Shown here: piece by piece, positions 6,271-20,560 of the stretch | Layout: every line of letters starts with the position of its first letter | Position numbering within the stretch: the first letter of the stretch is position 1 | NCBI GenBank assembly: GCA_021432605.1 | Contig: MU271147.1 | Coordinates: forward strand, 372,001 to 436,000 | Length of the DNA: 64,000 nucleotides | DNA from: Coniochaeta sp. PMI_546 | Taxonomy: Eukaryota > Ascomycota > Sordariomycetes > Coniochaetales > Coniochaetaceae | Direction: 5' to 3' | Notes under the pieces: generated by a model | Told to the model about the DNA's origin: nothing | Databases searched by the model: none | The model's input: only the letters and a program-made list of their open reading frames with translations | Made by a program: the position numbers and the translations under genes

Positions 6271-7365
6271 TTTGCTCGGGGAGAGGGCAGCTGTGAGCCA
6301 AGTTGAGACAAGCAAGCGAAGAACGAGAGTAGCGATGAGTCCGACGATTACTTGTCGCCAGGTTCCAAGATCTATAGTCTATACTGCCTCTCTAGGCTCT
6401 CTTAGTGTTGGTCAGACCTCGAGGTGGACTTTCCACGTCAAATGGAAAACTGCAGGGAGAAAAGTTGTCAAATCAAGCCTTGTTGGTTGTGAGGAGATAG
6501 GGCAAAGCGGGAACCGCGAGCCATGGCCGTAAGAGGTGGCATATATCGGCAGCAATCTCTATTGGACTGAAGCGTGATTGCTCAGGGGACACTATCCCTC
6601 GCATGTAGGCGTCTCAGGTACCTGTTAACCTTGTCAAGGTATCTAGGTCCCCAGTACGGACTTGGCCATGCCAGCTCCAACGGCCATACCTTAGTCATTG
6701 GTGTCACAGGCAAGACAGAAGAGATGCCGTAGGGGCGAGCGACCCCACTCCGCCAGCGGACAATTCCCCACGCCTCCGCATCTTTTCTCTCCAGGGAAGC
6801 CTCGATCGGCAGAAGTTTGATGCCCTTACGGTCTGTGGTCTACATATGGTTCCTTGCTCTAATACGTGCTGGATGTACTGTAGTGCTCCAAAAGTGACTA
6901 CACCTACAGCTGGTGGCGTTAGACAATTTTGACGGCAACTCCACGACTACGTCACAGTTCAGTTCAAGGGTCAATATCTGGGGTAAGGGCGACATTTAGC
7001 GGGGGCCTCCTGAGTCAAGATAGGCTTGGTAGCAAGATATAGACGTAGTCCTAGTATACGGCTTCCAGGAAACAATTCCGAGCAACATCCGACCATTGCT
7101 TGCCACGTTGGGGCTCTGGCGAGCTTTACTGAGTGAGAATGAATGGATCAGGTCTGTAGTAAGACCCAGGGCCTTCCGCAGTGGTCAATGTGATTACTGG
7201 TAATTAAAATCGTCCTTTTATAAGTCTTATCACCTAGCAATCTTCAAACGACTCTGCTACTTGTGGAAAAAAAACTTTATCTGCGGTCTGGTACCTAAGA
7301 ATCAATTCGGCCAAACAGCGAATAGAGACACGATGTTATTGCGTATACAATGTGGAATAACCATT
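6271..7365. other. Intergenic between regulator 1 and the vanillyl-alcohol oxidase
   Basis: Holds the promoter of the leftward regulator and the 3' region of the oxidase. No gene is visible. The only structured signal I see is the cluster element near 6757-6778. Confidence 0.5.
6757..6778 (-). promoter_or_regulatory. Cluster promoter element, copy 1 (regulator 1 promoter)
   Basis: On the minus strand the core reads GTGGGGAATTGTCCG, preceded by CGGAGGC and followed by CTGGCGGAG, so that a CCG and a CGG triplet face each other across four bases. It matches four other copies, in the other four intergenic regions of the cluster. Confidence 0.6.
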
Positions 7366-9529
7366 TCAGGGCCCAAGCTTACTCCGAGGAACTGCCCATG
7401 CACTACCATCATAGGACTTTGGCCAGATGCCATTCTTGCCCGGCGCCAGGATTCCCTTTGGGTCGAGCGCGTTCTTGATGGCCACGTTGAGCTTCATCTG
7501 CGCGTTGTCATTGAAGTTGTACGTCTGCGCGATCTGGTCCATCAGCGCCAGGTGGGTGCGGTATTCGCCCCAGCCGCGCTTCGCCGCGTCGTCGATGAGG
7601 GTGGTGATGACCCAGTGGGCGCGGCGACAGGACTCCGGGTCTTTCCTGTCGAACACGATGCATACGATGTGGTGCATCTCACGCATGCCGACGGCGAAGG
7701 TGCCGATGAAGTCGAAGCCGGCCTCCTCGCACCTGGCCCTCGTGACCTTGTACTGCGCAACGGCATCGTCCCCGCTGACCTTTGCGATGGGCGAGAAGAA
7801 AAGATGGGCGCCGTTCGGCAGCCAGTCGACCCATTTCAGTTCTGTGGTCGTGGGCACGCCTTGGAGCGTGAGGTGACGGGTCTGGAGAACGATGTTGTCC
7901 GGCATCTCCTCTGGCGAGTAGCATTTGGCTCCGGGGATGGCTGAGAAGGCCTTTTTGACCACATCCCACAATACGGCGCGCACTGGATCAGGGCCGTAAA
8001 TCGCCCCGTAGAAGTTCCACCGCCCGAGACCCAGCTTGAGCGCGATTGCGTCCAGTTCTTGATCGTTCAAGGGGCCGCTCTTTGTTGTATACGCTGTGCG
8101 ATTACCCTGTTCGTTCATTTGTTGTTATTAGTACTCATGAAGACTCTACATAAACAATATGCATATATGGGGAGCCTGGACGGCCAATTTGTCCTTGTCG
8201 GCAGACATTGTGGTGGGGACTGTGTTTTTCAGAGAGATTGAGGAGATGTACACATACCATAACGGCCGCGTCCAAGAGGATGTGTCTTAAAGTCGGGACA
8301 TTCTGCAGGACATTCGAGAGTCGAAGTGGCCGGATGATCTCAACGGCTTGGTGGAGGTCTTGGTCACGCGGGATCGTCACCAGGTAGCTCTGGTACCCTC
8401 CAGGATTAGCCATCAGCCAGATACCCATCTTTACGACAATGCCCAGAGACGACTGCGAGAATATGCCGTCGTTGTAAGGGCCAAATCCGTAGTTGAAGAG
8501 CTGCCAGGTTTCATTCGGTTCCTGCTCATGTGGCGGTTTGTTCGGATCCGCGTCAGGGTTTGGTAGAGCTCCCATTCCCTAGAGCAAGTTAGACGAGTTC
8601 TCTTCTTAGTAGGCAGTGTCAGAGCAGAAAGGGCGCCCTCATATTGGCGGGCGCTGACGAGCGAGCACAAGAACGGCGGACGCAAATAGAATCAACTCAC
8701 AGTACGAAGCAGAGTACCATCCGGCAGAATAACTAATGTAACGGTGGTCAGTTTAGGTTTGTTGCCAGAACGACGGAGACATCTATCATACCTTCCATGC
8801 CACAATGCATCATAAAGTGGTCACCTTTGGCCGCATTAGCTCAGGTTTCGTGCACGAGTAGCCGGTCTGAAGCGACTCACCATACGGAGTGTATCCAACA
8901 CCGCGCTCGACGGCGTTGCCCAACACTGAGCCTCCGCCAAGATCCGGGACATCAATCCACACCTTCTCTCGCAGGTTGTTCTCGACCAGGTAGTTATGCA
9001 GATCACTGAACGTGACGCCGGGCTCGACCAAAGCGTACGCTCCGTCAACGTCAACTTTGAGGACCTTGTTCATGTGTCGACCCAGATCCATGCCAACGGA
9101 TCCCGGCACCCGTGGAGCTGCTCCGCCGTAGCCAACATTCCGTCCGATGGAGAATGGCCACAATGGGATCTCGAACTCGTTGCACAGCCGCACTATGGCC
9201 TGGACGTCCGGCACATCGCGGGGCGCGACCACGGCGGAAGAAACGAAATACTCCTTCCCCACAATGTGGTACATGTCGTGCGCCTTGGCCGGGTCCAGGT
9301 AGTCTTCGTGGCTGAGTTCTTCCGCCTTGGAGATGATGGTAACGTTGGCGTCTCCGCAGATGTGACCAGCACGGATGGTGAACTCCTTGAACCTCTCCGG
9401 ACTGACACCAGGAGGGAGGCAGAGCGGCTGGCCAGCAACCCGGGGAGCTTCACCGTTGGGCCGGCGAAGAGCAGCCGCGGCGGCACCATTGGAATCGTTA
9501 ATCGAGACTGGCCCTTGTGTCTGGGTCAT
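7366..9529 (-). CDS. vaoA: Vanillyl-alcohol oxidase (FAD-dependent 4-hydroxybenzyl alcohol / 4-alkylphenol oxidase)
   Basis: Five exons (8881-9529, 8792-8824, 8701-8732, 8258-8578, 7366-8106) join in phase to 591 residues, close to the 560 of the Penicillium simplicissimum enzyme, with near-collinear similarity. Visible active-site features, in the numbering of that enzyme: the Tyr108 region ([14 protein letters not shown]), Asp170 (DVPDLGGG), Tyr187 (GVGYTPYG), the covalent-FAD His in [11 protein letters not shown], and Tyr503-Arg504 ([12 protein letters not shown]). The family oxidises vanillyl alcohol, 4-(methoxymethyl)phenol and 4-allylphenols such as eugenol, producing H2O2; the P. simplicissimum enzyme is peroxisomal and cytosolic. 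The predicted C-terminus (KLGP) is not a clear PTS1, though KL is near. Two internal exons are only 33 and 32 nt. The N-terminus is about 25 residues longer than the reference. Confidence 0.93.
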
Positions 9530-19764: not shown

Positions 19765-20560
19765 GCGGATGGGACGAGATCCTTTTCATTTGACAGCCCT
19801 GGGGAATGTTGTCACAAACCAGACCTATTACGTATCAAGAATGAACGGATGGACGGGCCTAGAGTGTTCGCCCCCTAGTTAGAATTGAATAAGTAGACTA
19901 GTCTAGAGTCTGTAATCGGGAGACCTCATCTCGCATATTGTCTGTCTCAGCCCCTTCATCGCTCACGACGTTGAGACAGTTAGCATCTGGAGACAATTCG
20001 CTGTGAATGGCCTTACACTCCGGTACATTGGTCGGAATGACATTTGCCAGAATTGTTGATATCCAGACCCCTGTTGGGAATGACTACAGCTACCTTAGTC
20101 CGGGTTATGCTTTATGGCCCCCTCAAATGGACAGGACTAGCTTTCTTTGCGGCTTCACAGGGGGAGAGAAATCGGGGGTGGGGAATTGTCCGAGAGCACT
20201 GTCGGACTGGACGCACCGCAGATGGCGTGTCACTTGGTCTCACTACGGCATTGTCATTGCCCGGCTGCTTCCATGCTGCGGGGGTTTGGTAGTCCTACGG
20301 AACTGCTGTCTTGTATCGTTCCTCCGGAAGATCTTTTTGGTCGCTATTACGCAGTCGTCTGCCTGGGTTGACACAAGTCCGATGCGCCAGGGACTGCTTA
20401 GACTTAATAATTATGGAAGAACGTCCATTAACTGGCCATTCCCCAATGTAAGGACCTATCTCAAACACCCATTCCCTCTGATCGTACCTTCTCATCATTG
20501 GATCAGGCCCCTGGACTTGTCTTTGCCTAACTTCCACCATTTGCAGATCCACCCTCGGCC
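19765..20560. other. Intergenic, aldehyde dehydrogenase promoter
   Basis: Contains the ADH 3' region and the ALDH promoter with the shared element and the adjoining palindrome. The long plus-strand frame 20007-20612 is not supported by any domain. Confidence 0.5.
20174..20192 (+). promoter_or_regulatory. Cluster promoter element, copy 5 (aldehyde dehydrogenase promoter)
   Basis: Reads GGGGGTGGGGAATTGTCCG and lies about 370 bp upstream of the start codon. It overlaps a second inverted repeat, GTCCGA-N8-TCGGAC, at 20188-20207. Confidence 0.65.

Follow-up and report, generated by a model that had tools for sequence, protein, structure and literature searches.

Cmr1p and Pig1p are dual-specificity factors that combine C2H2 fingers with a Zn2Cys6 cluster (Shelest 2017, PMC5415576), and the cited passages of that 2017 paper describe DNA recognition by this class as obscure. 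Few regulators of fungal aromatic catabolism have been identified, according to the cited part of PMC12388069. TanR/TanX and QutA/QutR, in passages of PMC10512348, are activator-repressor modules of such catabolism, and in A. niger growth on benzoic and vanillic acid is influenced by FarB (excerpts of PMC12388069 and PMC10512302). The binding site of the catabolite repressor CreA is given as SYGGRG (PMC5795998, in part).

The 64-kb stretch of Coniochaeta DNA analysed here (the window) belongs to a genome that was scanned over 33.5 Mb, and holds a cluster of seven genes that probably serves the breakdown of lignin-type aromatics (Table 1). The vanillyl-alcohol oxidase (VAO) carries FAD_binding_4 and FAD-oxidase_C domains and has the full-length VAO match expected of a family member. 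It scores 841 bits over 34-583 against structures of the P. simplicissimum vanillyl-alcohol oxidase (PDB 1w1k and others), and is 62% identical to the P. simplicissimum entry P0264. In WGEYRTH and one further segment, which line up with VAO, the active-site residues are retained. For ALDH, a search of solved structures at a cut-off of 1e-110 returned no match. The NCBIfam matches shown for P450, HYD, ADH and ALDH (for ALDH, 25 of 43) all fall under their cut-offs, and we therefore claim no substrate from them. A domain scan identified no AROM-like domain in any of the seven cluster proteins.

Table 1. Genes of the cluster and copies of the promoter element, in window positions
Feature	Position	Strand	Description
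REG1 (regulator 1)	3190..6270	-	Zn2Cys6 + Fungal_trans factor, 915 aa, modelled; exon 3/4 junction uncertain
VAO	7366..9529	-	vanillyl-alcohol oxidase, 591 aa
P450	10505..12508	-	cytochrome P450, 534 aa
REG2	13633..16314	+	two C2H2 fingers + Zn2Cys6 + Fungal_trans, dual-specificity factor, 782 aa
REG2 exons	13633-13687, 13747-13773, 13895-13949, 14010-15829, 15923-16314	+	corrected gene model
HYD	16571..17674	-	alpha/beta hydrolase (Abhydrolase_3), 345 aa
ADH	18585..19684	+	zinc alcohol dehydrogenase, 346 aa
ALDH	20561..22236	+	aldehyde dehydrogenase, 486 aa
Copy 1	6757..6771	-	GTGGGGAATTGTCCG, exact 15-mer; REG1 ATG at 487 bp
Copy 2	9822..9836	+	GGTGGGAATTTTCCG, 2 mismatches; VAO ATG at 293 bp
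Copy 2 half-sites	from 9823	+	GTGGG-N5-TCCG; N5, not N6
Copy 3	13007..13021	+	GTGGGGAATTTTCCG, exact 15-mer; divergent P450/REG2 promoter, 499 bp to P450, 612 bp to REG2
Copy 4	18183..18197	-	GTGGGCTAATTTCCG, 3 mismatches; divergent HYD/ADH promoter, 509 bp to HYD, 388 bp to ADH
Copy 5	20178..20192	+	GTGGGGAATTGTCCG, exact 15-mer; ALDH ATG at 369 bp
Possible degenerate extra copy	18519..18533	-	GTGAAGACTTGTCCG, 3 mismatches; near ADH start, same HYD/ADH promoter; may be chance

A shared element, with the exact core GTGGGGAATTKTCCG in three copies and looser forms of it in two, occurs in all five promoter regions of the cluster, one copy apiece and with the nearest start codon 293-499 bp away, and its presence in these promoters is firmly supported. 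The initial annotation had listed five copies at these positions, all of which were recovered; its distances of 290-495 bp were right in substance, its coordinates being slightly longer than the 15-mer. It had described four copies as nearly identical and that at 18183 as looser, which holds for 18183, with three mismatches, while the other four comprise three exact copies and one (9822) with two mismatches. A copy had also been claimed for all five intergenic regions. This is true of the five promoter regions, but seven genes leave six gaps, and the sixth, the convergent REG2/HYD gap (16315-16570), has no match at up to three mismatches. GTGGG-N6-TCCG is found in four of the five copies, including the loose copy 4, in which both half-sites and the N6 spacing are intact and the spacer is altered. 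By eye, the flanks of the copies do not align between promoters.

Absence of the element from the rest of the window, as first proposed, applies to the exact form; at up to three mismatches there are further matches at 18519 (-) and 63545 (-), and the total of seven compares with 2.94 +/- 1.57 in 100 shuffles, two of which reach seven. Genome-wide, the exact core has three matches, all three in the cluster (reversed-pattern control, 0). With up to two mismatches there are 100 matches: the three exact ones, three one-mismatch sites elsewhere, and 94 two-mismatch sites, one of which (9822) is in the cluster, where four of the 100 lie in all. Near-matches are thus common, and restriction to the cluster holds for the exact form alone; the genome scan called for by the initial annotation confirms confinement of the exact element but places 96 forms with up to two mismatches elsewhere, against 66 in all for the reversed control. 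The degenerate pattern GTGGGSWAWTKTCCG, fitted to copies 1, 3, 4 and 5, has six matches genome-wide, four in the cluster (control, 0). One of the other two (C14:26609) lies within an 885-aa open frame, and beside the second (C1:248805) no aromatic-pathway gene was recognised. Among the one-mismatch sites, C17:285004 falls within a 555-aa open frame, and a frame resembling, by eye, a short-chain dehydrogenase lies about 0.5 kb downstream of C1:666527, so the regulon may be wider than the cluster. The flanks of the VAO paralogues on C9 contain no copy at up to two mismatches; one locus (L016) has a bare GTGGG-N6-TCCG and the other (L017) a three-mismatch copy. One cis-element is therefore common to the cluster promoters and rare elsewhere, its loose forms being common, and we regard it as a well supported, cluster-restricted shared promoter element.

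Such a pattern might arise by chance, from base composition or through copying of promoter DNA (a repeat or a duplicated cassette), as the promoters are G-rich and GTGGGG alone is 4.9-fold denser in them than in background. We addressed post hoc motif choice with a seed search, in which the best 15-mer seed common to the five promoter regions scored 68, whereas 60 shuffled sets averaged 60.9 and peaked at 62. Most of this excess is due to the three exact copies; copies 2 and 4 fit the seed at 12/15, where the mean best of the shuffles is about 11.5, and are by themselves unremarkable in this test. Chance would yield about 0.002 matches (up to two mismatches) in the VAO promoter and 0.04 (up to three) in the HYD/ADH promoter, which makes copy 4 the weakest. 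Chance or GC bias was rejected on the confinement of exact matches together with the seed test, and with flanks that by eye do not align, the explanation as a whole has a very slight probability.

Half-sites were counted in 4,980 promoter bases (five regions) and 69,306 background bases (seven arbitrary loci), using bipartite patterns picked after the sites had been seen. GTGGG-N4..7-TCCG occurs five times in the promoters, once per region, versus two in the background, and GTGGG-N5/6-TCCG is absent from the seven background loci. The N5/6 form has three matches in ten fetched loci, all in L004 and L006, and this count was not used as background because two of the three are the sites for which the loci were fetched. 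In the 33.5-Mb genome GTGGG-N6-TCCG is matched 204 times (control, 282), four of these matches falling in cluster promoters, and GTGGGG-N5-TCCG 48 times (control, 69). Since the half-sites by themselves are not enriched, the AT-rich spacer must matter. One GTGGG-N6-TCCG match is located within the REG1 coding region (3503-3517).

The candidate reader of the element is REG2. Its N-terminus has two adjacent C2H2 fingers and, 24 residues on, one Zn2Cys6 cluster, the make-up of a dual-specificity factor. The DNA-binding domain had been placed at 13887-14200, a span that misses the two upstream exons with finger 1, a finger that rests on our own splice model. The C2H2 fingers score under the Pfam cut-offs; the relatives P0121, P0123 and P0142 score at or above one of them, and P0132 has neither finger 1 cysteine. 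At helix positions -1/3/6, finger 1 has R17-H20-R23 and finger 2 has R45-A48-R51. H20, R23, R45, D47 and R51 are invariant in all six aligned proteins (REG2 and five relatives, 70 to 35% identity), and the same alignment keeps A48 in five and R17 in four. By the finger code (R to G, H3 to G), finger 1 is predicted to read GGG and finger 2 G-N-G, together GNGGGG, the left half of the element; this fit is post hoc and also suits CreA's SYGGRG. The Zn2Cys6 cluster suits CCG. REG2 also seems to travel with VAO, because homologues of both are found on contigs of equal size in Neopestalotiopsis clavispora (g10277 and g10279; 91,350) and in Coniochaeta ligniaria (3,225,153).

We hypothesize that GTGGG(G)AATTKTCCG serves as the pathway-specific cis-element for a cluster that catabolizes aromatic alcohols and centres on VAO, and that it is one asymmetric, bipartite site bound by REG2. 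In the GTGGGG half, C2H2 finger 1 would hold GGG and finger 2 GTG, and the Zn2Cys6 cluster, probably as a monomer, would hold the CCG half across the AT-rich spacer. A single copy would be enough for a single or a divergent promoter because the site would function in either orientation. REG2 would thereby switch on, rather than repress, VAO, P450, the hydrolase, ADH, ALDH and regulator 1, and would also act at its own promoter. Counting against this two-grip arrangement are the need for an AT-rich spacer, which it does not itself explain, the N5 spacing of copy 2, and the GTGGGC of copy 4, in which the third G of finger 1 is lost. On present sequence evidence we lean slightly towards REG2 as reader of the whole asymmetric element and controller of the cluster, itself and regulator 1. 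Somewhat more tentatively, and a little short of an even chance, the element may be a naturally occurring composite site at which one protein of the dual-specificity C2H2 + Zn2Cys6 type reads a pair of G-rich triplets through its C2H2 fingers and a CCG through its zinc cluster, all on a single asymmetric 15-mer. The initial annotation had taken the shared element as strong evidence for one regulon of the seven genes, regulator 1 included; the element is cluster-restricted, and from it we infer one probable regulon of seven genes with both regulators, a well supported reading.

A Zn2Cys6 homodimer on CCG...CGG, as originally suggested, would be expected to use two half-sites at a fixed spacing. 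The CCG-CGG spacings are 4, 5, 3, none within 10 (the copy at 18183) and 10, which leaves the idea unsupported; moreover, the conserved part lies on the opposite side of CCG, and the right flank shows no further conservation. A CGG does follow within 10 nt in four of the five copies (p about 0.005 when the window rate is taken as reference), and so may serve as an optional extra contact. Over the window, 97 of 524 TCCG words have such a CGG; in the five promoter regions the figure is 11 of 43. The homodimer is, in our estimate, highly improbable. With both strands counted, the promoters contain no CGG-N6-CCG pair and one place each with CGG-N10-CCG and CGG-N11-CCG, and these pairs were rejected.

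Catabolic clusters are usual targets of CreA, and the left half of the element could be a catabolite-repression site beside an inducer-specific CCG, the composite joining glucose repression to induction. GTGGGG fits SYGGRG, and both words are denser in the promoters (SYGGRG 6.83/kb versus 3.81/kb in background; GTGGGG 1.61/kb versus 0.33/kb), although SYGGRG occurs 264 times in the 69 kb of background. The word is inside the element in copies 1, 3 and 5; it is broken in copies 2 (GTGGGA) and 4 (GTGGGC), which have it only through neighbouring words (9817; 18209). CreA also leaves the conserved AATTKTCCG and the near-fixed spacing unexplained, and we consider this reading improbable. The XlnR word GGCTAA was rejected as the shared element, being within copy 4 and absent from the other copies. 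GGCTAA is denser in the promoters (3 in 4,980 bases versus 8 in 69,306 background bases).

REG1, a Zn2Cys6 protein likened to CTF1-beta/Far, might instead read the element, alone or beside REG2 as separate proteins on adjacent half-sites. It belongs to the cluster, has the element in its own promoter, and, having a Zn2Cys6 domain, would be able to bind the CCG; a Far-type regulator would suit an aromatic cluster, given the effect of FarB on growth with benzoic and vanillic acid. This would leave the G-rich half unexplained. The Far/CTF1 core is CCTCGG, a term that appears in the literature together with FarA/FarB; it is absent from the element and was rejected as the shared site, since its promoter density is at background (0.60/kb versus 0.69/kb) and it occurs in three of the five promoter regions. 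The Far-like status of REG1 rests on the names of some relatives ('cutinase transcription factor 1 beta'), and among the best 120 of 328 relatives listed, identity is at most 44%. The Coniochaeta relatives P0021, P0022 and P0046 are on contigs that differ in size from those carrying REG2 homologues in these fungi. A role for REG1 as reader is unlikely, with a modest chance of being right.

Open-access papers matching the letters of the element concern, by title or abstract and among the matches listed, mostly cyanobacteria, microalgae or soil microbes, and none a fungal promoter. The matched string in them presumably belongs to a cyanobacterial 16S primer. Our searches of open-access papers brought up none that deals with a composite site for the C2H2 + Zn2Cys6 class, and if correct, the site proposed for REG2 would be the first DNA-recognition rule for this class as far as those searches show. 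The locus offers five natural sites adjoining the gene of their probable reader, bearing both on regulators of aromatic catabolism and on recognition by this factor class, and, as a candidate, a set of inducible promoters that lignin-related chemistry might use.

Compared with known systems, REG2 resembles Cmr1p and Pig1p in having two close C2H2 fingers and then one Zn cluster at the N-terminus, with Fungal_trans further on; those factors control melanin genes, whereas REG2 sits in a VAO cluster, and for a class whose recognition was obscure in 2017 a candidate composite site is named here. The enzyme resembles P. simplicissimum vanillyl-alcohol oxidase in sequence, and the Coniochaeta gene is clustered with those of two regulators and four other enzymes. 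In the TanR/TanX and QutA/QutR systems, too, a catabolic cluster has two regulators within it or next to it, but both Coniochaeta regulators carry Zn2Cys6 domains and no AROM-like ones in the domain scan. Some REG1 relatives are annotated as cutinase transcription factor 1 beta, and Far proteins act in aromatic use by A. niger; Far/CTF1 promoters have CCTCGG, and the shared element of the cluster is another. As in CreA, finger 1 of REG2 has an R-E-H-R type helix, and the left half GTGGGG fits the CreA/Mig1 site SYGGRG. Unlike the CreA/Mig1 site, the cluster element runs on with AATTKTCCG, and its exact form is restricted to one cluster.

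Each of the five promoter-bearing gaps of the seven-gene cluster holds one copy of a shared 15-mer, which is almost certainly a real cis-element confined to this cluster. Re-scanning the window (C5:372001-436000, in a 33.5-Mb genome of 24 contigs) recovered all five copies at the positions given in the initial annotation. The exact 15-mer has three matches in the 33.5 Mb scanned, all of them in the cluster, against none for a reversed-pattern control, and the chance of three random exact sites all landing within a cluster-sized span is ~5e-7. Allowing as many as two mismatches raises the total to 100 (control, 66), comprising the three exact cluster sites, three one-mismatch sites elsewhere, and 94 two-mismatch sites, including the copy at 9822.

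The best 15-mer common to the five gaps, a search that allows for post hoc motif choice, scored 68 versus a maximum of 62 in 60 dinucleotide-shuffle sets, an excess owed mainly to the three exact copies. The best seed is matched at 12/15 positions by copy 2 and by copy 4, near the best from shuffled DNA; taken singly, matches as good as these are expected 0.002 and 0.04 times, respectively, in their own promoters. Matrices derived from the stronger four copies (the 15-mer and two longer versions) were scanned over the 64 kb. The next-best places were 63545, 18519 and 18183 for the 15-mer matrix, and 18519 and 18183, which share the HYD/ADH promoter, for both longer ones. Two further weak matrix matches, at 18039-18059 and 18519-18533 (-), fall in this promoter along with copy 4, and it may carry several degenerate copies in place of one strong site.

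Cluster genes and copies of the shared element
Feature	Coordinates (strand)	Assignment	Basis
REG1	3190-6270	Zn2Cys6 + Fungal_trans	domain scan
VAO		vanillyl-alcohol oxidase	domain scan
P450		cytochrome P450	domain scan
REG2		Zn2Cys6 regulator	domain scan
HYD		alpha/beta hydrolase	domain scan
ADH		zinc alcohol dehydrogenase	domain scan
ALDH		aldehyde dehydrogenase	domain scan
Copy 1	6757-6771 (-)	REG1 promoter; exact	re-scan
Copy 2	9822-9836 (+)	VAO promoter; 2 mismatches	re-scan
Copy 3	13007-13021 (+)	P450/REG2 promoter; exact	re-scan
Copy 4	18183-18197 (-)	HYD/ADH promoter; 3 mismatches	re-scan
Copy 5	20178-20192 (+)	ALDH promoter; exact	re-scan

All seven gene models were rebuilt by hand from splice signals. 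The convergent REG2/HYD gap has no element at up to three mismatches. The 15-mer lies 293-509 bp from the start codon for six genes and 612 bp for REG2, and faces either way with respect to the gene, as expected of an activator or repressor site. The element is predicted, with good probability, to mark a single regulon of seven genes. The alignment of VAO to the Penicillium simplicissimum enzyme spans residues 34-583 (841 bits), and a Coniochaeta ligniaria protein shares 87% identity with VAO (95% of VAO covered). VAO, ADH and ALDH read most naturally as a pathway that takes aromatic alcohols via aldehydes to acids, the substrate being inferred. The right-hand neighbor (23202-24428) looks by eye like Atg3, an autophagy E2, a housekeeping gene that would, if so identified, mark the cluster edge.

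The element can be read as bipartite, with GTGGG-N6-TCCG in copies 1, 3, 4 and 5 and GTGGG-N5-TCCG in copy 2. Copy 4, described initially as looser, does differ from the rest, but its half-sites and N6 spacing are kept (GTGGG-CTAATT-TCCG), so that the change is limited to the sixth base and the spacer. GTGGG-N4..7-TCCG has a single site in each of the five promoter regions (4,980 bases in all), compared with two sites across seven arbitrary loci totalling 69,306 bases, coding DNA included; the N5/6 form is absent from these same loci. Both patterns were picked with the sites already in view. One further GTGGG-N6-TCCG match falls inside the REG1 coding region (3503). Genome-wide, the half-sites alone are not over-represented (GTGGGG-N5-TCCG, 48 versus 69 for the control; GTGGG-N6-TCCG, 204 versus 282), so the AT-rich spacer must contribute, which counts against a pure two-grip model. 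With the spacer specified, GTGGGSWAWTKTCCG has six genome matches, four in the cluster (control, 0).

The proposal of a Zn2Cys6 dimer on CCG followed by CGG did not hold and was rejected because the spacing is variable (4, 5, 3 and 10 bases, and no CGG within 10 bases in copy 4). A downstream CGG in 4/5 copies is somewhat more than the window rate would lead one to expect (p ~0.005); TCCG has CGG within ten bases in 97/524 cases in the window and 11/43 in promoter regions.

REG2 is a candidate reader. Two short upstream exons supply its C2H2 finger 1, missing from the DNA-binding domain as first delimited, so that in REG2 a pair of C2H2 fingers precedes the Zn2Cys6 cluster. The REG2 model without finger 1 is matched at 100% identity over 64% of its length by a 498-residue protein of Coniochaeta sp. 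PMI_546. Finger 1 is present in relatives (e.g. FTRHEHLQRHLLSH in P0121 and FTRLEHLQRHLLSH in P0123); one relative, P0132, lacks the finger 1 cysteines. The REG2 fingers score below Pfam cut-offs, and P0121, P0123 and P0142 have at least one finger at or above a cut-off. H20, R23, R45, D47 and R51 are invariant in 6/6 aligned sequences, A48 is kept in 5/6 and R17 in 4/6. Zinc clusters usually take CCG as their half-site; in C2H2 fingers, which bind in antiparallel order, arginine at helix positions -1 and 6 favors G. Histidine at 3 also favors G, according to PMC1183507. The -1/3/6 residues of the two fingers (R-H-R and R-A-R) thus predict 5'-G(T/N)G GGG-3', the left half of the element. The fingers would read the GTGGGG half and the zinc cluster the CCG half; there is about an even chance that REG2 reads the element as a composite site. 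CreA, whose site is SYGGRG according to PMC5795998, could act beside REG2; its site accounts for GTGGGG but leaves the rest of the element unexplained.

REG2 seems to travel with VAO, since their homologues in N. clavispora (g10277 and g10279) and in C. ligniaria are each seemingly on one contig. VAO and REG2, unlike REG1, have close Coniochaeta orthologues; among the best 120 of 328 relatives of REG1, those in other Coniochaeta reach only 39-41% identity and none exceeds 44%. One possibility is that REG1 is a lineage-specific addition at the cluster edge. These Coniochaeta relatives are seemingly on contigs other than those of the REG2 homologues. REG1 could also act beside REG2 as a Far/CTF1-type regulator; the core of such sites is CCTCGG, which is not common to the five promoter regions.

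Elsewhere in the genome, neither of two VAO paralogues (C9:1037282-1038898, 49% identity; C9:522522-524223, 36-39%) has the element at up to two mismatches in the flanks read. A one-mismatch copy, GTGGGGAACTTTCCG (L004:5028-5042; C1:666527), lies ~0.5 kb upstream of what by eye resembles a short-chain dehydrogenase frame, and is a possible target outside the cluster. A second, diverged factor (G000:C7:2421719-2424192) is 29-40% identical to REG2 over its pieces, one of which spans the finger and zinc-cluster region. The REG2-like P0139 of Fusarium denticulatum is annotated as one protein together with a TauD-type oxygenase domain (PF02668), which may reflect an annotation that fused neighboring genes.

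Shelest (PMC5415576), who calls the DNA recognition of such factors still obscure in its details, places the architecture of two C2H2 fingers plus Zn2Cys6 in Cmr1p/Pig1p and A. nidulans paralogues. In Cmr1p, by the same text, deletion of the Zn cluster abolishes melanin output and deletion of the C2H2 fingers lowers it (PMC5415576). REG2 resembles Cmr1p/Pig1p in this combined C2H2 and Zn2Cys6 architecture.
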